Positions 27,379 to 36,858 of a stretch of DNA of 45,765 bases are shown here, one piece after another. The position numbers were made by a program, and so were the translations under genes. This stretch comes from Sulfurimonas sp. (GTDB taxonomy: Bacteria > Campylobacterota > Campylobacteria > Campylobacterales > Sulfurimonadaceae): the NCBI GenBank assembly GCA_016744115.1, contig JADGEZ010000018.1:1-45765 (forward strand), written 5' to 3'. The notes beneath the pieces are model-generated. The model did no database searches. It was not told the origin of the DNA and saw only the letters and a list, made by a program, of their open reading frames with translations. How positions within the stretch are numbered: position 1 is the first letter of the stretch; every line of letters starts with the position of its first letter.

Positions 27379-28452
27379 TTATTTAGTATTACTTTGAGAG
27401 AATTTAACAATACTAAATAAATCACTAAAAGCATTTTCACTAGAAACTTCAACATTTTGAAGACGAGCTAGAGCTTCTGAATATTTTGCTTCAAGTTGTA
27501 GTTTTATTGCTTCTTTTAAACCTTGATGTACATTAGTATGATGTTTTGTAATAGAAGCTAGTTTAGAATCTCCTTTGAGAAATGTAGAACTAGCCTTTGT
27601 GTACCATTTAGCAAACCTGCAATTGTTTTCATCTATTATATCTGCAGAATTTTCATTTATCATAGCCCTATAGGTTGAAATTTTTAAAGATATATGATCT
27701 ATTTTTCCAACATTTACTTGTAATTCATCAGTAACATACTGCGTTTTATTTTTGATAGTTGAGGAGTTTTCCATTACTAGTTGAATACTTATATTAAATT
27801 CTTCTAATATATTGGTAACTTTTGAAGTTTCATCATTAAATGTCTGGCTAATTTCTAGCATAGAATTAGCATTTTGTTTTAATGAGTTAATATTAATTTC
27901 AACCTCACTTGTTGCTTTTTGAGTTCTTTCTGCTAGTTTGCGTACTTCATCTGCAACAACTGCAAATCCTCGACCATGTTCTCCTGCTCTTGCTGCTTCA
28001 ATAGCTGCATTAAGTGCAAGTAAGTTTGTTTGATCGGATATATCTTTAATGAGACCAATAATATCGCCTATGGCTGTTACACTCTCATTTAAGGAGTTTG
28101 AATCATCTCCAAGTGTATGTGTATATTCTTGTATTTTATCAATGCTACTAGCAATTGCATTTGTCTCACTCTCTACATCGGTCATTTTTTCTGTAGTTAC
28201 TGTGTTTAAGTCATTTATCTCTTGCAACATTTCAAGGGGGCTATTTACTGTTTGTTGCAAAAAATTATTTCCATTTTCATAACTATCTAAAAGAGTATTT
28301 ACAAGTTCATCTGTTTTTTTGTCTTCTATAAAAATAGGCTTTTGAAGTTCTTGTATTTTTACTCTTTGATCTTGAATCTCTTGTCTGAGCTTTTTGAGTT
28401 CTAGTGTATGTTGTTTTTCTAATTCTTCTATTTTTGAGCTACATCCAAACAT
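27379..28452 (-). CDS. Cytosolic MCP signalling protein with CZB domain
   Basis: With the start at ATG 28452 (AAGGA five bases upstream) the protein is 357 residues and begins [14 protein letters not shown]. An upstream start at 28491 lacks this. It has no transmembrane helix: a coiled coil (about 5-45) leads into an MCP signalling domain with the tip [20 protein letters not shown], then a CZB zinc-binding domain ([32 protein letters not shown]). CZB domains of cytosolic receptors can sense zinc-linked signals such as hypochlorous acid. It lies 96 bases after the NIT-phosphatase gene on the same strand. Confidence 0.85.
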
Positions 28453-28548
28453 ATTATTCCTTATTTTATATTTAATATCTTGATAATACATTAAGGTGAC
28501 TTATAAAGTTCTGATATATATTATAACGAGACCGTTTAATGTAATATT

Positions 28549-31221
28549 TTATATTTTAAATGCTATCATTGTAATGTCATCATTTGTTTCTTCATTCCCT
28601 TGGTAGTCTAATAATGTATCTAAAAACATTTTTTCTTGATTCACAAACTTTTCATTGTGAGACTTATTTATAATATCTTTAAACTTTCTTTTACCAAATG
28701 GAAAACTTTTTTTTCCACCATTTTGATCTAAAAAACCATCTGTAGAGATGTAGAATTTCATATTATCTTGTGTATCAATACTATGTTGAGTAAATTCATA
28801 ATTAGAATCAGAAGTTCTGTAACCTATAGAGTGTCTATTTCCTTTTATCATATTTAATTCATTATTATTTATTATAAATAATTCGGTATTAGCCCCTGAA
28901 AATTTGATATTTTTTTCTTTTTTATTATAATAAATAATTCCTCCATCAAAGCCTGCATTTGAAATAGAGTCGTTTTTTTCTTGTTTTAAGATACTTTTCA
29001 TAGCAATATTAAATTTTTTTAAGATAGAAGCTGTATTTATACTAGATTTATCATTGATTATCTTTGAAAATATTTCTCTTTCTAAAGCTTTTACTAGCAT
29101 TGTCACAAAAGCACCAGGAACTCCATGACCAGTACAGTCGATAACCATAAATATACATTCATCTTGACTTATCTCATCAAATAGATATATATCACCTCCT
29201 ACAACATCTTTGGGTTTCCAAATTACAAAATATTCTTTAAAGTATTTAGAAAATATTTTTTTATCTGGAAGAATAGAGTGTTGAATTAAAGAAGAATATT
29301 CTATTGAATCTTTTGTATTTTGGTGCAATTTTTTTAAATTAATATGTAAGTTATTAAGATTATCTTTTTGCTTTTCAATTGTATCTAAATTCATACCAAC
29401 TTTTTTATTATCCATTAAAACACTTGTGATAGAATCCCCTAACGTATTTACTCCTGAGGATAACTTATGAAGATGTGCTTTTAAGTTTTTAGTTTGTATT
29501 TTTCTAGTAAAATTAAAATTTGAATATTCTTCTAAAACTTCTAATACACTAGAAATATTTAACTCCATATTATCAGCCATCTTATTAAGAAGTGTAGCAA
29601 GTTCATTTAAAGCTTCATTGGAAATTATTACAATAACTCTTTTGGATAGATTACCCTCTTCAAATTCTTTCAAAACTTCAATAGTTTCTTTTATGACATT
29701 TTTTTCTTCTTCTATCCCTACTTGTATTCTTTTTATATTTTGATTAACCTCTTTAGATATGTAACCAATTTCTGTATTACTTTCAATTAATAAATTTATA
29801 GTATCTGTTTTTTTGTTAATATAATCAAAAAAAGAAAATATACCTTTACTGAAGTCTTTGATAGTTTGCATGATATTTTTATTGATAAAAAATGAAAATA
29901 CAGTGAGAAATAGTATTAACAAAGTTGTGATAATACCTATAATGTAAAATTCTTTTATTAGCAAGTCATGTTCTGTATGAATGGTTTCTAATAATTCTTC
30001 AGTTACAAAATCACTAATTTCTTTCATTAAATTAATTTTTACTGTACTTAACTCAAACCAAACAGAGGCTTTTACACTAAACAAACTATTGCTAAGTGTA
30101 TTAAAAGCAGTAATTGCAGGTTTAACATCAACTTTAATCATTTCATCACTTTTAGATGTTCTAACTTTAGCTTGAATCGCTTCTATGATTTTTGGTAGAT
30201 TTTTATGATATAAACTAAAAACATGTTCTATATCTTTTAGTAAGTTGAGTTCTTCTTGATTAACATATTTCATATTTTTATAAGTATTTATACTTTTTAA
30301 TAAATCTTTATATAAAAGTTCAACATTCTGTGCATACTTATAGTCTCTTCGTATGACAAAATTTTTAAAATTATGGATGAAACCACCATAACCGACAGTA
30401 TTTTGCATATTAGATATTATGTGAGTTTTTTTTGATGAATAAAGTAGTTTATTTATAATAGGGATTAATTTATGAAAACTTTCATTATCAATGGTCGTTT
30501 TATAAAAGTTTTTTGTATCACTAGAAGCATATTTTAAAAAATTAGCAATAAATATGTTTTCTTCTGCAATATTATTAGTAAACTTTACTCTAACACCCTC
30601 TTCAAATTCATTTTTATTTAAAATACTAGCACCAATGGCTTTTTGAATACCAACTGTTTCTTTAGCAAGTAAAAAATTTAAATAGGCAATCAATTGTCTA
30701 GTTACCACAGATGAAACAGCCATTTTACTAACATTTACTATGAGTTCTAAATATCTTGAATTTATTTTTGTATAGTAAGTTAATAGTTCATCATAAGAAA
30801 TAAACACACTTTGTACTTTGGCTCTCACATGAACAATATTATTTGTATAATTTAATGATTCTGCTAATAGATTAATACTATTTTGATTCAAATTATCCAT
30901 TTTAATTTCTTTGATAAAACTATTTAAATCTTGCAATTTTTTATTAGTTATATTGTATTGCTCTTTTAACCTTTTTTGAGTATCTTTTGAGTTTACCTCT
31001 AGAAATAAAATAGAGATGCCTCTTTCTTTTTGGATTTCATGAACGAGGGAGGATATTTTAGTTGAAAGAATGACACCATTTTTTAAAATGTCTAGTTTTT
31101 CAATTTTATAATAACCATCGTATATAAAATATAAAGACATTAATATTATTACTATAACAGGTATCAATATCAAGATGAAAATTTTATTTTTTATAGATAT
31201 GTCGAAAAATAATTTGTTCAT
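28549..31221 (-). CDS. NIT-sensor SpoIIE/PP2C-type serine phosphatase (SiaA-like)
   Basis: In order: a transmembrane helix (about 13-33), a NIT-type helical periplasmic domain (SSLVHEIQKERGISILFLEV near residue 55), a second transmembrane helix (about 421-443), a HAMP-like linker (DFSKGIFSFFDYINKKTDT, then EIGYISKEVNQNI) of the kind seen in epsilonproteobacterial chemoreceptors, and a C-terminal SpoIIE phosphatase (about 645-890). The catalytic metal motifs are GGDIYLFDE, DCTGHGVPGAFVTM, STDGFLDQNGG and NDDITMIAF. It is expected to dephosphorylate an anti-anti-sigma-like partner, probably the SiaC encoded upstream. ATG 31221 has AGGA eight bases before it. The phosphatase domain is nearly the same as that at 33259-34000. 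Confidence 0.85.
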   Translation of the reverse strand: MNKLFFDISIKNKIFILILIPVIVIILMSLYFIYDGYYKIEKLDILKNGVILSTKISSLVHEIQKERGISILFLEVNSKDTQKRLKEQYNITNKKLQDLNSFIKEIKMDNLNQNSINLLAESLNYTNNIVHVRAKVQSVFISYDELLTYYTKINSRYLELIVNVSKMAVSSVVTRQLIAYLNFLLAKETVGIQKAIGASILNKNEFEEGVRVKFTNNIAEENIFIANFLKYASSDTKNFYKTTIDNESFHKLIPIINKLLYSSKKTHIISNMQNTVGYGGFIHNFKNFVIRRDYKYAQNVELLYKDLLKSINTYKNMKYVNQEELNLLKDIEHVFSLYHKNLPKIIEAIQAKVRTSKSDEMIKVDVKPAITAFNTLSNSLFSVKASVWFELSTVKINLMKEISDFVTEELLETIHTEHDLLIKEFYIIGIITTLLILFLTVFSFFINKNIMQTIKDFSKGIFSFFDYINKKTDTINLLIESNTEIGYISKEVNQNIKRIQVGIEEEKNVIKETIEVLKEFEEGNLSKRVIVIISNEALNELATLLNKMADNMELNISSVLEVLEEYSNFNFTRKIQTKNLKAHLHKLSSGVNTLGDSITSVLMDNKKVGMNLDTIEKQKDNLNNLHINLKKLHQNTKDSIEYSSLIQHSILPDKKIFSKYFKEYFVIWKPKDVVGGDIYLFDEISQDECIFMVIDCTGHGVPGAFVTMLVKALEREIFSKIINDKSSINTASILKKFNIAMKSILKQEKNDSISNAGFDGGIIYYNKKEKNIKFSGANTELFIINNNELNMIKGNRHSIGYRTSDSNYEFTQHSIDTQDNMKFYISTDGFLDQNGGKKSFPFGKRKFKDIINKSHNEKFVNQEKMFLDTLLDYQGNEETNDDITMIAFKI

Positions 31222-31254
31222 GTGTAGAGTCCTAATAAATTTATTTTAGTTACT

Positions 31255-32208
31255 TTAGTCCAACATATCTTTAAAAGTAGATCGAATAGTTAAAAATTCA
31301 TCCAAGTTTTCAAAAAAAATATCAATTAATTTAGGATCAAAATGTTCCCCTCTTTCTTCTCTAAATAACTTAAATATTCTTTCATCTTCCCATGCTTTTT
31401 TATATACCCTATCACTCCCTAGAGCATCAAATACATCAGCTAAGGCAGTTATTCGTCCATATATATGGATCTCTTCACCTTTTAATCCCTGCGGATAGCC
31501 TTTTCCATTATATTTTTCATGATGTTCATAGGCTACTGTTGATGCAGTTTTTAAAAGAATCCTATTAGAATGTCTTAACATATCATAACCTATCTGTGCA
31601 TGAGTATCCATGATAACTCTTTCTTCATCAGTGAACCTACCAGGTTTATTTAATATCATATCAGGAATAGCAACTTTTCCTATATCATGCATAGGCGAGG
31701 CTTGTTTTAACATCTCAGCTTCTTTTAAAGGTAAACCATAATAAAGAGCAAAAAGTTTAGAGTATTCTGCAACTCTTTTAACATGAAAGCCCGTTTCTTT
31801 GGACCTACTCTCACCAATAGCACCCATAGTAAAAATAACTTCTACTTGGGTATCTTCTATTTCTTTACTTAGGAGTTTAATTTCCTCTAGTTTTAACTGA
31901 AGTTCATCGTAATCTTTTCTCTGTCTTTGATCACTCCTCAACATGATTTTATCTTGTCTTACAATATCCTTTATTAATTTTTTTGTTGTATCTTCAAAAT
32001 TTCGTTTTAATATTTCAATTTCATTAATTAAAGAATTTTTTTCTGTATTTTTTTCTTTATTTCTTCTGGAGATTTTAGTTCTTCTTTGGGATTCTTTGCG
32101 TCTTTGTTCTTTATCACGCTTGTCTCCTTTTTTGCGTCTTTCTCCCTTCTCACGCCTCTCTTCTTCTCTTCGCCTTTCTTCTTCTTTACGCCTTTCTTCT
32201 TTATCCAT
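31255..32208 (-). CDS. HD-GYP domain c-di-GMP phosphodiesterase
   Basis: Residues 1-58 are an extreme Glu/Arg/Lys tract (repeats of EERR/ERRR), followed by a coiled coil (60-125) and an HD-GYP domain (about 130-310). The key residues are H174-D175 in HDIGKVAIPD, DTHAQIGYDM, and HHEKYNGKGYP (229-239). HD-GYP enzymes hydrolyse c-di-GMP with a di- or tri-metal centre. There is no receiver domain, so control must come through the N-terminal region or a partner. The gene starts 17 bases after siaC, in the slot where Pseudomonas has siaD, a diguanylate cyclase. c-di-GMP hydrolysis follows from intact motifs; SiaC control is inference. Confidence 0.87.
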   Translation of the reverse strand: MDKEERRKEEERRREEERREKGERRKKGDKRDKEQRRKESQRRTKISRRNKEKNTEKNSLINEIEILKRNFEDTTKKLIKDIVRQDKIMLRSDQRQRKDYDELQLKLEEIKLLSKEIEDTQVEVIFTMGAIGESRSKETGFHVKRVAEYSKLFALYYGLPLKEAEMLKQASPMHDIGKVAIPDMILNKPGRFTDEERVIMDTHAQIGYDMLRHSNRILLKTASTVAYEHHEKYNGKGYPQGLKGEEIHIYGRITALADVFDALGSDRVYKKAWEDERIFKLFREERGEHFDPKLIDIFFENLDEFLTIRSTFKDMLD

Positions 32209-32225
32209 TATTCATAAACCTTACT

Positions 32226-32603
32226 CTATTTCTCTTTTAGGTTAAAAGTTAGATTTTCAAAATCATCTTGAAAGTCTTCTCCAGCTTCTAAAGCACTTTC
32301 ATTCTCTTCATCGTAAATCCAGTTTATAGTTATCTTGTGCTCATCATTGTTTTCTTCTAATAAATCAAAAAAATCAAAAAATAATTTAGAACTACTTGAG
32401 TTAAAATATATAATTTCTAGTGAAATTATAGTTTCTTCTTTAGCATGTTTTCTAAAATATTTATCAATCCAAGATAAAACAGGCTCATAAAATTCAAATG
32501 TATTTTCTGGATATGATTTTCCAAAAAAATTCATTTCGCCTTTGCTCGCATCTAAGTCAATTTGTGGAGTATATTTTGTTTGTTCTATAGAAAGATTTTT
32601 CAT
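32226..32603 (-). CDS. siaC: SiaC family regulatory phosphoprotein (DUF1987)
   Basis: This 125-residue protein fits the DUF1987/SiaC family: IEQTKYTPQIDLDASKGEM at the start, GKSYPENTFEFYEPVLSW, LEIIYFNSSSSKLFF, and a WIYDEENES segment. In Pseudomonas aeruginosa SiaC is phosphorylated on a threonine by SiaB, dephosphorylated by SiaA, and when unphosphorylated activates the cyclase SiaD. The equivalent site here appears to be Ser69, in FNSSSSK. The ATG lies four bases after the siaB stop, so they are coupled. Confidence 0.85.
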   Translation of the reverse strand: MKNLSIEQTKYTPQIDLDASKGEMNFFGKSYPENTFEFYEPVLSWIDKYFRKHAKEETIISLEIIYFNSSSSKLFFDFFDLLEENNDEHKITINWIYDEENESALEAGEDFQDDFENLTFNLKEK

Positions 32604-32607
32604 TTTA

Positions 32608-33165
32608 TTAATCCGTTATCATAATTGATATATTTAAGTTGAAATAAAATTGATTTTCATTGATAACTTCAAAATGATAATTCATCTTATCAGATCGTTT
32701 GGCTATCTCTAAAAAACCTATGCCTGCACCAAGAGAATGCTTGTCCTTACCTTCTCTTCTAACTTGTCTATACTTTTTTTTCAATTCTTCTTTACCTAAG
32801 GTGACAACTCCTTGAAGCTTATCCTCTAATTTTTCTTTGGCATCTTTAGAAACTACATTGTTACTATGAAGCAAATAATTTTTAATCTTGCCTTGCTCTT
32901 CTTCCTTTGCTACTAATATTAAACCATCAGTGCTAATTTCTGAATCTTGATCATGTCTACTTGAATAGTTCATCATGTTTTGGGTTAATTCAATAAAAAT
33001 TGTAAAAATATTATTAGCAATACCCATTTTTAAATTATTGTCTTCTGCCTCTTTTTCTAAGGCATCTATCATCCCAGTTATCAAAGTCTGAGACAATATA
33101 CCTCCATAAGTTAAAAATATAATCCCCTCGGATTCTATAATTGTTCTAATTTGATTTATATGCAT
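32608..33165 (-). CDS. siaB: SiaB family protein kinase
   Basis: This 185-residue protein fits the SiaB (DUF6272) family of GHKL-type kinases. The N-box-like helix reads FTIFIELTQNMMNYSSRH (about residues 54-71) and a glycine-rich loop is seen in SLGAGIGFLEIAKRS (about 148-162). The family phosphorylates SiaC. AAAGGA precedes the ATG. The gene is 93 bases after the large phosphatase gene and four bases before siaC, the same order as siaA-siaB-siaC in Pseudomonas. Confidence 0.85.
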   Translation of the reverse strand: MHINQIRTIIESEGIIFLTYGGILSQTLITGMIDALEKEAEDNNLKMGIANNIFTIFIELTQNMMNYSSRHDQDSEISTDGLILVAKEEEQGKIKNYLLHSNNVVSKDAKEKLEDKLQGVVTLGKEELKKKYRQVRREGKDKHSLGAGIGFLEIAKRSDKMNYHFEVINENQFYFNLNISIMITD

Positions 33166-33258
33166 TTATTTTCCTTTTATAACTTTGACTTTGCAGATGT
33201 GCTTGTATTTTGTATCATACTATAATGAACTTTGAATTTTTATTAATAGACATAATTT

Positions 33259-36200
33259 TTATATTTTAAATGCAATCATAGTAATATCATCATTTGTTTC
33301 TTCATCACCTTGATACTCTGATAATGTATCTAAAAATATTTTTTCTTGTTCTACAAACTCTTGAGTATGAAATTTTTGTATAATACTTTTAAACTTTCTT
33401 TTCCCAAATGGAAAACCTTTTTCTCCACCGTTTTGATCTATAAAACCATCTGTTGTGATATAAAAGTCCATATTATCTTGTGTATCTATAATATGCTCTG
33501 TAAATTTATAATCTGCATCAGATGTTCTGTAACCAATAGAGTGTCTATCCCCTTTAATCATCTTCAATTCATTGTCTTTCATTATAAACAACTCACTATT
33601 AGCTCCTGAAAATTTGATGATTTTTTCTTTTTTATTATAATAAATAATTCCTCCATCAAAGCCCGCATTTGAAATAGAATCTCTATTTTCTTGTTTTAAG
33701 ATACTTTTCATCTCTTTGTTGAACTTTTGCAAGATAATAGAAGTATTTATGTCATTTGTATCATTTGAGATACTTGAAAATATTTCTCTCTCAAGTGCTT
33801 TTACTAACATCGTAACAAAAGCACCTGGAACTCCATGACCAGTACAATCAATAATCATAAAAATACATTCATCTTCAGTTATTTCATTAAATAGATATAT
33901 ATCTCCTCCTATTATATCCTTGGGTTTCCATATCACAAAATATTCTTTAAAATATTTTGCAAACAATTCTTTATCAGGAATAATAGCATCCTGAATAAGA
34001 GAAGAATATGCTATAGAGTCTTTTATATGTTTGTGTGTTTGATGCAAATCTTTTCGCTGTTTTTCAATAGAATCTTTCATATGAAAAAACTCTTGAATAG
34101 TCTCACCAATCTCATCAGTATAAAAAATCCTCTTTTTTATATCTGCATCATTCATTTTGAATTTTTTTATAATTCTTGATAAATACTCAAGAGGTTGTGT
34201 GATTTTTTTCATTATCATTAAGTATATAACAAAGTTTCCGAGAATAAAAAATATGCCTACTATTATAATATATATAAATTCATTTTTAATTCTATAGTTT
34301 AATAATTCTATTTGAGCATTCATACCTTGATACATTGAAATTACCATATCATCTAGGGGAAGCATGATTTTTTCTTTTTCTTTATAATATTGTTTTGAAA
34401 ACAATAGTTTTATTGCTAACTTTTGATTATCGTTCTCCATGGCTTTAAAAGCATCTTTTTCTAAATTTACTAAATTATTTGAATTAAATTCCGACAAATG
34501 TAAAAGATCTTTTTGAAAAGCGTTAAAAGGTAATTTATTAATGATGCTTTTTATAGATTGTTTATGTATTCCTTTGTGTTTTTGCTCTCTTCTTTCTTTG
34601 TTTAAATCCCAATAAATTAAATTATAATGTTTAGGTCTAATCTTAGATCCGTTTCTTATATCTAAAATATCAAAATATTGATTTTTGAATTTTACCTCTT
34701 TTGTAACAGCATAAGATCTTACTGATTTAGTTAAATCATCGGAACTTTGTCTTAGCTTTTGCATCACTTGAACTATATCAGTCTTATGTTTATATACAAG
34801 TGCTAGTTCATTTTCAACTCTATCTAAACTAAAAATTTGATAAATCAGAAAAAATATTACAGAAAGCTCAAATGCAACTATAAATAAAATAAATTTATTT
34901 ATGTTAATATTTAATATCTTTGATTTTGAATAAGTAGAATAAATAAAAATTAATAAAACACCTAATACAAAGATAGAAAAAAGAAGTTCACCTAATGTTA
35001 AGATATTTAATAATGAAAATTCTTGATTATTTTTTGAATTATTTAAGTTTTTATTTATTTGTGTTGCTGTACTAATATCATTATTGATTGCCTGCAACCA
35101 TTTGTTAGATATTTCTACTTTTTTTTCAATTGTAATGGTATTTAAAGCTTTTTGAATGATCGAAGCTAAAATAGGCTTATTTATATTTGAAAAAACATGT
35201 AAACTCGGAGACTCAAAAGATGCTTGAGAAATACCTTTTAAACCAAGAATAAACTCATCATTTATCTTTTTTTCTACAACAATTTGCCCATTAAATAAGG
35301 CGTCGGCTTTTGAATTTAACACAAGATTTATAGCCTCATGTAAAGATTTAGTAGTTATTATATTGATTTTTGGAAATTTCTTTTGTATCTTGTCAATAGA
35401 GCCAAAGCCTAGTTGCATTATAAGTGTTTTACCCTCTAAGTCCTTCATTGAAAATATAGTGTTATTAGTTTTTTTTACATAAATATAATCTTTCATTTTA
35501 AAATAAGGCTTGCTATATAAACCATAGTGCGATCTTTTTTCTGTGTAATAAGAAGCTGGTAGTATATCTATTTTTTTATTTTTAAAATCATTTAAGATCA
35601 TATCCCATGTATCATCGACATAAGTAACATTCAAGCCAGTTCTTTTTATGATAAGTTTCATATAATCTCCACTAATTCCATCTATTTTTAATGATGTATT
35701 CATAAAAACTATAGGAGACCAATCTTCAACTCCTATGCTAACTGTGTTTTGACTAATCCATTTTCTTTCTTGAAATGTCAGCCCAAGATTTATTTCTTTT
35801 TGACTTGCTTTTAGTATATCTTTTTGATATATTTTATCCCTTAAATTTGATAATTCCTCTTTAGGGATAATTTTAAATATTTTATTAATTATGGAATGAA
35901 GTAATGGATAGTTTTTATTTATTCCTAAGTGTTTATTTCCATATTTGTTGTAAATTATTTTTGCTACTTTAAGTCTATATTTTTGTAAGTCTTGATAATT
36001 TTTTTTATATGAAACTAGGGCTGAGACATCTTTGTTTTTAGATAAATTTTCATACATGGTTCTTTCATTTGAATAATGTAGTACATTTACATTTTTGGAA
36101 TCTTTTTCAATTGTTTTATTTGAGGAAGATTTTTTTAGAGTATAAATTGTTTTATGTTCTAAATCTTTTAAAGATTGTATCGTAGTATCTGCTTCTTTTG

Positions 36201-36621
36201 TAATAAGGTATAAAGGACCAAAGTTATACGACTTAGTATAGTTAAAGTATTTTACACTTCTCTCTTTTGTCCAAGATAAGTTTAATATTCCAAATACTAA
36301 TTTATCCTCTTTTGCTTTTGCAAAGGCTTCTTCCCAAGAAGAAAATTTAATTGCTATTAAATTAGTGCCACCATATTTATTTAATAATATTAATAAATCT
36401 GTGTGTATATTGCTTCCTTTGCTATCGTACTTGGCACTCAAAGTAGTTGCAATATTTATATTAGGGTGAGCCTCTAACCATTCTTCTTCTTCTTTTGTAT
36501 AATCAGGCATATATGTGTTACTTGATTTGAAACTATTAATTTTTACTGTATTGTTATATGCATGTACCGTATTTAGATAGCTTAACAAAATAATAAAAAC
36601 AATAACTTTTCTAATATACAT
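33259..36621 (-). CDS. siaA: Double SBP_bac_3 sensor SpoIIE/PP2C phosphatase (SiaA-like)
   Basis: The 1120-residue protein has a signal-like first helix, two periplasmic solute-binding (SBP_bac_3, PBP2-like) domains (about 45-275 and 290-525; the second has SIGVEDWSPIVFM and GISGDYMKLIIKRTG), two transmembrane helices (about 540-562 and 577-600), a second helical periplasmic region, a further transmembrane helix (about 785-808), a HAMP domain and a C-terminal SpoIIE phosphatase (about 880-1120; GGDIYLFNE, DCTGHGVPGAFVTM, TTDGFIDQNGG). The tandem SBP domains suggest sensing of an amino acid or similar small solute. ATG 36621 is chosen over 36633 because GGAG lies six bases before it. It heads the siaBC cluster and should dephosphorylate SiaC. 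Confidence 0.85.
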   Translation of the reverse strand: MYIRKVIVFIILLSYLNTVHAYNNTVKINSFKSSNTYMPDYTKEEEEWLEAHPNINIATTLSAKYDSKGSNIHTDLLILLNKYGGTNLIAIKFSSWEEAFAKAKEDKLVFGILNLSWTKERSVKYFNYTKSYNFGPLYLITKEADTTIQSLKDLEHKTIYTLKKSSSNKTIEKDSKNVNVLHYSNERTMYENLSKNKDVSALVSYKKNYQDLQKYRLKVAKIIYNKYGNKHLGINKNYPLLHSIINKIFKIIPKEELSNLRDKIYQKDILKASQKEINLGLTFQERKWISQNTVSIGVEDWSPIVFMNTSLKIDGISGDYMKLIIKRTGLNVTYVDDTWDMILNDFKNKKIDILPASYYTEKRSHYGLYSKPYFKMKDYIYVKKTNNTIFSMKDLEGKTLIMQLGFGSIDKIQKKFPKINIITTKSLHEAINLVLNSKADALFNGQIVVEKKINDEFILGLKGISQASFESPSLHVFSNINKPILASIIQKALNTITIEKKVEISNKWLQAINNDISTATQINKNLNNSKNNQEFSLLNILTLGELLFSIFVLGVLLIFIYSTYSKSKILNININKFILFIVAFELSVIFFLIYQIFSLDRVENELALVYKHKTDIVQVMQKLRQSSDDLTKSVRSYAVTKEVKFKNQYFDILDIRNGSKIRPKHYNLIYWDLNKERREQKHKGIHKQSIKSIINKLPFNAFQKDLLHLSEFNSNNLVNLEKDAFKAMENDNQKLAIKLLFSKQYYKEKEKIMLPLDDMVISMYQGMNAQIELLNYRIKNEFIYIIIVGIFFILGNFVIYLMIMKKITQPLEYLSRIIKKFKMNDADIKKRIFYTDEIGETIQEFFHMKDSIEKQRKDLHQTHKHIKDSIAYSSLIQDAIIPDKELFAKYFKEYFVIWKPKDIIGGDIYLFNEITEDECIFMIIDCTGHGVPGAFVTMLVKALEREIFSSISNDTNDINTSIILQKFNKEMKSILKQENRDSISNAGFDGGIIYYNKKEKIIKFSGANSELFIMKDNELKMIKGDRHSIGYRTSDADYKFTEHIIDTQDNMDFYITTDGFIDQNGGEKGFPFGKRKFKSIIQKFHTQEFVEQEKIFLDTLSEYQGDEETNDDITMIAFKI

Positions 36622-36858
36622 TTCTAACTCCATTTAGATAGATCTAATTTATTTACTTAAATAGGATGAGAAAATAAATTTCATATTATCTAATATCTAC
36701 TGTAATGTAGAATATGAATTCTATGAAATTAATCTATTCTATAGTTTCTATGGTGTTATGATAGCATAAATATAAATTTTTTTATATAATTTTAAGTTAA
36801 ATTTAAGAGCTTAGAGATTAAAAGGAGTCTAAAAAGTAGGAGTTCAAATTTCTAGTGA

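Follow-up and report, generated by a model that had tools for sequence, protein, structure and literature searches.

To date SiaC has been understood to activate a single diguanylate cyclase, SiaD of Pseudomonas aeruginosa. In a Sulfurimonas sp. the genes of a SiaABC-type partner switch stand directly before a gene for an HD-GYP protein, which raises the question of whether the same switch can be wired to an enzyme that removes the biofilm signal cyclic di-GMP (c-di-GMP) rather than making it. These genes lie in a stretch of 45,765 nucleotides (contig JADGEZ010000018.1, assembly GCA_016744115.1; hereafter the window) from a host genome of 2.05 Mb. We propose, with moderate confidence, that the locus is a SiaABC partner switch with an HD-GYP phosphodiesterase output in place of the SiaD cyclase, and that SiaC docks on this enzyme and activates it.

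Five genes are arranged in series on the minus strand and encode, in order of transcription, SiaA-like phosphatase 1 (33259..36633), SiaB (32608..33165), SiaC (32226..32603), the HD-GYP protein (31255..32208), and SiaA-like phosphatase 2 (28549..31221). The siaC stop codon is separated from the HD-GYP ATG by 17 bases, and the HD-GYP gene from the second phosphatase gene by 33 bases. Gene coordinates and family matches bear out the order of SiaA-like phosphatase, SiaB, SiaC and, 17 bases later, HD-GYP given in the original prediction, which was made from the sequence alone. Its interval of 28549-36621 takes in the four genes that it named; the start at 36621 is Met5 of the open reading frame (ORF) beginning at 36633, and the second, NIT-type phosphatase within the interval was left undescribed. 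The first four genes (36622-31254) align as a single 5.4 kb block, at 78% DNA identity, with a Sulfurospirillum metagenome-assembled genome (MAG) whose organism assignment rests on MAG binning, and the alignment ends at the HD-GYP stop codon. This endpoint indicates that the four genes moved or were retained together as a unit, and so speaks for the HD-GYP gene being part of it.

The HD-GYP protein (317 residues; PF13487, 111 bits) is a predicted c-di-GMP phosphodiesterase, with the metal ligands, GYP motif and fold all present. Its closest solved relative is the tri-nuclear c-di-GMP phosphodiesterase 4mcw, at 45% identity over the aligned catalytic domain. The alignment displays an intact active site (E, H, HD..K, H, HH, GYP, D, and the SDR.YKK segment), with all metal-site motifs common to both proteins, and thereby confirms the earlier claim that the HD and GYP motifs are intact. 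The aligned part of 4MCW starts after the stalk described below, and no docking motif for SiaC appeared in the matched region. An AlphaFold2 model of the window protein has one uninterrupted helix from residue 3 to residue 135, followed by the HD-GYP fold. The N-terminus (32032-32208) is a roughly 60-residue extension rich in Arg, Glu and Lys, which most relatives lack; the Sulfurospirillum MAG copy (locus L122) has a similar, longer one.

A motif of the form R..K[VI]...SD..Q....D lies on the long helix, upstream of the catalytic domain (residues 84-101, RQDKIMLRSDQRQRKDYD; 31906..31959, minus strand), where the predicted local distance difference test score is about 79-90. The P. aeruginosa SiaD stalk has two motifs to which SiaC binds (PMC8457831), with contacts at residues R74, K77, V78, R80, I81, S82, D83, R84, Y85, Q86, M88, R90, and D91 (PMC8457831; crystal 7E6G), and the proximal motif in 7e6g reads RRLEKVARISDRYQQMMRD. 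Aligned to SiaD on the serine, the window motif is identical at R74, K77, S82, D83, Q86, and D91, with V78 replaced by Ile. Across 34 homologues D93 and Q96 of the window protein are invariant, and R84, K87, I88, S92, and D101 nearly so. The output enzyme of the window thus resembles SiaD in its long helical stalk with the SiaC-binding R, K, V/I, S, D, Q, and D, but differs in having one docking motif where SiaD has two per chain.

The pairing recurs in related organisms. We searched PF09345 in 200 genomes of the family (35 positive) and 397 of the phylum (21 positive), and took a separate named set covering Sulfurimonas, Arcobacter, Sulfurospirillum, Vibrio, Colwellia, Methylococcaceae, Rhodoferax, and Mariprofundaceae. 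Adjacency of siaC and an HD-GYP gene was found in many loci and in several gene orders (B-C-HD, HD-B-C, and C-HD-B). In the unselected family and phylum surveys a docking-motif HD-GYP lies within 5 kb at 31 of 63 SiaC places, and because of this the arrangement is not chance; another 11 places have other docking-stalk outputs only, and one has an HD-GYP without the docking motif. A survey of siaC neighbours in Campylobacterota had been suggested in the original prediction, with lack of conservation named as an objection to the link; the adjacency proves to be widely conserved, so that this objection fails. Of 58 distinct HD-GYP ORFs near siaC, 54 carry a relaxed form of the motif, the four exceptions including a fragment or HD-GYPs not directly adjoining siaC; this form is absent from all SiaA, SiaB, SiaC, and methyl-accepting chemotaxis protein (MCP) ORFs near siaC.

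Occurrence of the stalk follows that of SiaC. A hidden Markov model (HMM) of HD-GYP stalks built from proteins beside siaC (A1) gave strong matches (E<1e-8) in 18/35 SiaC genomes of the family versus 0/165 others (Fisher 2e-16), and in 12/21 SiaC genomes of the phylum versus 0/376 others (Fisher 1e-17). As A1 was built from siaC neighbours, the informative part of these counts is the absence of matches from genomes without SiaC. The host genome contains a second SiaC gene, only 42% identical to that of the window, which lies next to another stalked HD-GYP with the genes ordered differently, and A1 finds exactly two proteins in this genome, both HD-GYPs, one paired with each SiaC gene. None of the 19 GGDEF loci in the host genome has the docking motif, which disposes of a SiaD-like GGDEF partner encoded elsewhere, the other objection that had been foreseen.

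Docking residues are also present on other proteins near siaC, namely histidine kinases of about 315 residues, HATPase-CheX proteins, GGDEF proteins, and a class III cyclase; the residue tallies for these stalks illustrate rather than prove the point, as the search pattern already required part of the motif. A profile made only from the non-HD-GYP outputs near siaC (HMM A3) returned a single match among 177,635 PDB sequences, SiaD itself (7e6g_A, E=3.5e-4), and the match spans both crystallographic SiaC-binding motifs. With A3, 25/25 HD-GYP stalks, including that of the window, score above 400 shuffles each, and genome matches were found in 19/35 SiaC genomes versus 1/165 others. The HD-GYP at locus L059 has a stalk of the kinase type (61 bits with A3), suggesting that stalks have been exchanged between output classes.

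Both switch components can be compared with solved structures. The SiaB family protein kinase (185 residues) passes the NF038262 cut-off of 85 with 127 bits, aligns with SiaB of 6kko (E=2.6e-13), and retains the Glu and Asn of the ELTQN stretch. SiaC (DUF1987, 125 residues; PF09345, 137 bits) matches SiaC of 6kko/6k4f/7e6g (E=2.4e-19), and keeps N67, S69, D79, and D114 of the P. aeruginosa protein, with T68 replaced by Ser and E110 by Asp. The phosphosite equivalent to Thr68 is Ser69 in the window protein (codon 32399-32397), which leaves a phosphorylatable residue in the N-[ST]-S context. Unlike the Thr of P. aeruginosa SiaC, Ser stands at this site here and in 90 of 90 distinct SiaC proteins collected from relatives. 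The SiaC of one related genus (L085, L090, L091, L094, L096, L097, L101, and L103) is without the Asp79 and Ser69 of the SiaD-type interface. No docking-stalk protein was found beside siaC at those eight loci, all of which have SiaB and most a PP2C phosphatase; we regard this set as a SiaC lineage with a different partner or none.

The motif match, its SiaC-linked occurrence, the A3 match to SiaD, the paired genes in the host genome, and the lack of a motif-bearing GGDEF protein make it very likely that unphosphorylated SiaC docks on the HD-GYP stalk. The link between SiaC and the HD-GYP protein in the original prediction is therefore well supported at the sequence level, through adjacency conserved across gene orders and a crystallographically defined motif on the HD-GYP protein; the docking motif and the wide variety of SiaC outputs were not seen there. 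Several observations must be weighed against docking. SiaD residues R80, I81, Y85, and R90 are not retained in the window stalk, and SiaC residues R103 and L107 are replaced in the window protein. With A1 the SiaD stalk reaches no more than 12.4 bits, a score equalled by 3 of 19,750 shuffles, and A1 did not return SiaD from PDB sequences at E<=10. Mutual information between SiaC and stalk columns was not enriched at interface positions (p=0.79; 60 pairs, effective number 38). An adjacent HD-GYP at L087 is without the motif, and at 20/63 SiaC places no docking-stalk neighbour was recognised; four of these 20 are at contig edges, and some hold divergent stalks, by eye or profile (L069, L077). 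We draw the connection between the HD-GYP stalk and SiaD from the residue match and the A3 profile, not from A1, and the window stalk peptide alone gave no match as a query against PDB. Pairings picked by eye as coevolution, such as SiaC Tyr107/Glu110 with the C19-copy stalk, were dropped in view of the mutual information result.

The two phosphatases have distinct sensory parts. Phosphatase 1 (1124 residues) has two periplasmic SBP_bac_3 sensor domains (PF00497, 71 bits), membrane segments (hydrophobic segments at 539-605 and 784-813), and a C-terminal SpoIIE/PP2C domain (PF07228, 49 bits), while phosphatase 2 (890 residues) has a NIT (nitrate/nitrite sensing) domain (PF08376, 124 bits) and a SpoIIE/PP2C domain (PF07228, 51 bits). 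Despite these unrelated sensors, the PP2C domains are 75% identical. The PP2C domain aligns with SiaA 6k4e (E=3.3e-52) and keeps the VGGD, DCTGHG, STDG, and NDDIT motifs, leaving the acidic site intact. Neither protein reaches the 700-bit cut-off of the P. aeruginosa SiaA equivalog NF038263, with 248 and 246 bits respectively over the C-terminal half only, and by this comparison the sensor parts of both differ from P. aeruginosa SiaA. With unrelated sensors, a common PP2C type, and positions flanking siaB-siaC-HD-GYP, the two phosphatases indicate that two signals probably converge on a single SiaC, unlike in P. aeruginosa SiaABCD. The Sulfurospirillum MAG copy (L122) has the SBP type only.

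Phosphorylation chemistry and the SiaC-stalk complex are known from published work on P. aeruginosa. On that model, SiaB would phosphorylate SiaC at Ser69, and the two membrane PP2C phosphatases, one with tandem amino-acid-binding-type sensors and the other with NIT, would dephosphorylate it upon ligand sensing. Unphosphorylated SiaC would then dock at the stalk motif on the parallel two-helix stalk of an HD-GYP dimer, as on SiaD, in a complex predicted to be 2:2 from the single motif in the stalk, versus 4:2 for SiaD. Docking would lock the coiled coil in one register and most likely turn the phosphodiesterase on, so that c-di-GMP falls; SiaB would be the off-switch for the HD-GYP enzyme and either phosphatase its on-switch. 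Among 43 single-HD proteins, most have 82 residues between the docking Ser and the HD motif, five have 75, and one has 103. The differences amount to one or three whole heptads, as expected for signal transmission through a two-helix coiled coil; with only two or three indel events behind the pattern, they are suggestive of such transmission and no proof of it. HD-GYP partners of about 450 residues also occur (L104, L107, L109, L139, L157, L164); in these an additional N-terminal HD domain, divergent in sequence, seems to lie after the docking stalk and before the HD-GYP domain.

Given docking, analogy with SiaD makes it likely that SiaC activates, rather than inhibits, c-di-GMP breakdown. A point against this reading is that sequence does not separate the two directions: SiaC might dock but hold the HD-GYP enzyme inactive, so that dephosphorylation raises c-di-GMP and the net outcome is as in Pseudomonas. 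Identical docking evidence applies to such inhibition, which would also preserve the Pseudomonas polarity (phosphatase on, high c-di-GMP). We nonetheless consider inhibition unlikely, since the one complex solved so far has SiaC stabilising the parallel stalk of the active SiaD dimer in its extended form (PMC8457831), and since the heptad-preserving spacing from motif to HD suggests that the same two-helix stalk transmits the signal.

It is decidedly improbable that the genes are associated by neighbourhood only, with SiaC acting on an unlinked partner and the HD-GYP enzyme being independently regulated or a constitutive counterweight. The 20 SiaC places without a recognised stalk neighbour do make other SiaC partners feasible, and in the portions of PMC9239204 used here such a cluster is discussed solely as a gene neighbourhood. 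However, the motif is conserved, is absent from genomes without SiaC, and is present on unrelated catalytic domains beside siaC, and a motif-bearing GGDEF protein that might serve instead is absent from the host genome. We give very little credence to the motif being a generic signalling-helix trait of one HD-GYP subfamily, inherited with the operon and without a role in SiaC binding: the HD-GYP carriers do all resemble one subfamily, and co-occurrence measured with a profile built beside siaC partly reflects shared descent, but the conserved positions (R-8, K-5, I/V-4, S0, D+1, Q+4) are those that touch SiaC in 7E6G, are kept in the kinases, GGDEF proteins, and class III cyclase near siaC, and sit on a stalk which the L059 HD-GYP suggests has been exchanged between output classes.

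Beyond the window, it is fairly likely that SiaC serves as a general adaptor that clamps, under the control of phosphorylation, a portable coiled-coil stalk found on HD-GYP proteins, GGDEF proteins, histidine kinases (also HATPase-CheX proteins), and class III cyclases. Depending on the species, the same SiaA/SiaB input would hence either raise or lower c-di-GMP, and in some operons it would drive two outputs simultaneously. If the stalk is portable, the outputs of the large SiaC (DUF1987) family could be predicted by searching for the stalk and reading off the enzyme attached to it. The same clamp might then switch on enzymes of opposite effect, and free-living sulfur-oxidising Campylobacterota would have a means of linking nutrient or nitrate-type sensors to c-di-GMP removal.

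At two loci (L112:685-1683 and L114:1929-2927) a class III nucleotide cyclase bearing the stalk RQLSKIVKISDRQQ is encoded within 4 kb of siaC, which suggests a SiaC-controlled cyclic nucleotide output. Proteins of 650-720 residues with HATPase and CheX domains and a docking stalk stand beside siaC at L109, L139, and L062, and possibly link SiaC to chemotaxis. The siaABC locus on plasmid AZO_p3 of Azospirillum lipoferum 4B (L169) is followed by a histidine kinase and a diguanylate cyclase with KVAKISDRLQ / KIAKISDRMQ stalks, and unlike the window it has no HD-GYP output.

The window locus resembles P. aeruginosa SiaABCD (7E6G; SiaB-SiaC 6KKO; SiaA PP2C 6K4E) in grouping a PP2C phosphatase, SiaB, SiaC, and an output enzyme in one operon, and differs from it in an HD-GYP output for c-di-GMP breakdown instead of GGDEF. 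Partner-switch proteins of the STAS type control c-di-GMP enzymes in HsbA-HsbD of P. aeruginosa and BgrV-BgrR of Sinorhizobium (PMC8457831), but there the output is GGDEF and the switch protein lies outside the SiaC family. For Campylobacterota, a gene-neighbourhood prediction (mBio 2022; PMC9239204) had a PP2C phosphatase with a periplasmic sensor and a HATPase-type kinase (stas_STYK) regulate a c-di-GMP turnover enzyme via a STAS protein. The sections of that paper drawn on here name no HD-GYP output and no docking site and contain nothing on opposite sign. Our literature search, with subscription papers and preprints outside it, found no report pairing SiaC with HD-GYP, SiaC being treated only with SiaD. 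While Campylobacterota clusters had been predicted generically before, the HD-GYP output with a docking motif, the specificity of this motif for SiaC genomes, and the range of stalk-bearing output enzymes are new.

A scan of the locus for promoters and terminators found sites no more numerous than in shuffles. Directly downstream of phosphatase 2, on the same strand, lies a gene for an MCP signalling protein with a CZB zinc-binding domain (27379-28491), which is possibly in the same transcript as the sia genes.

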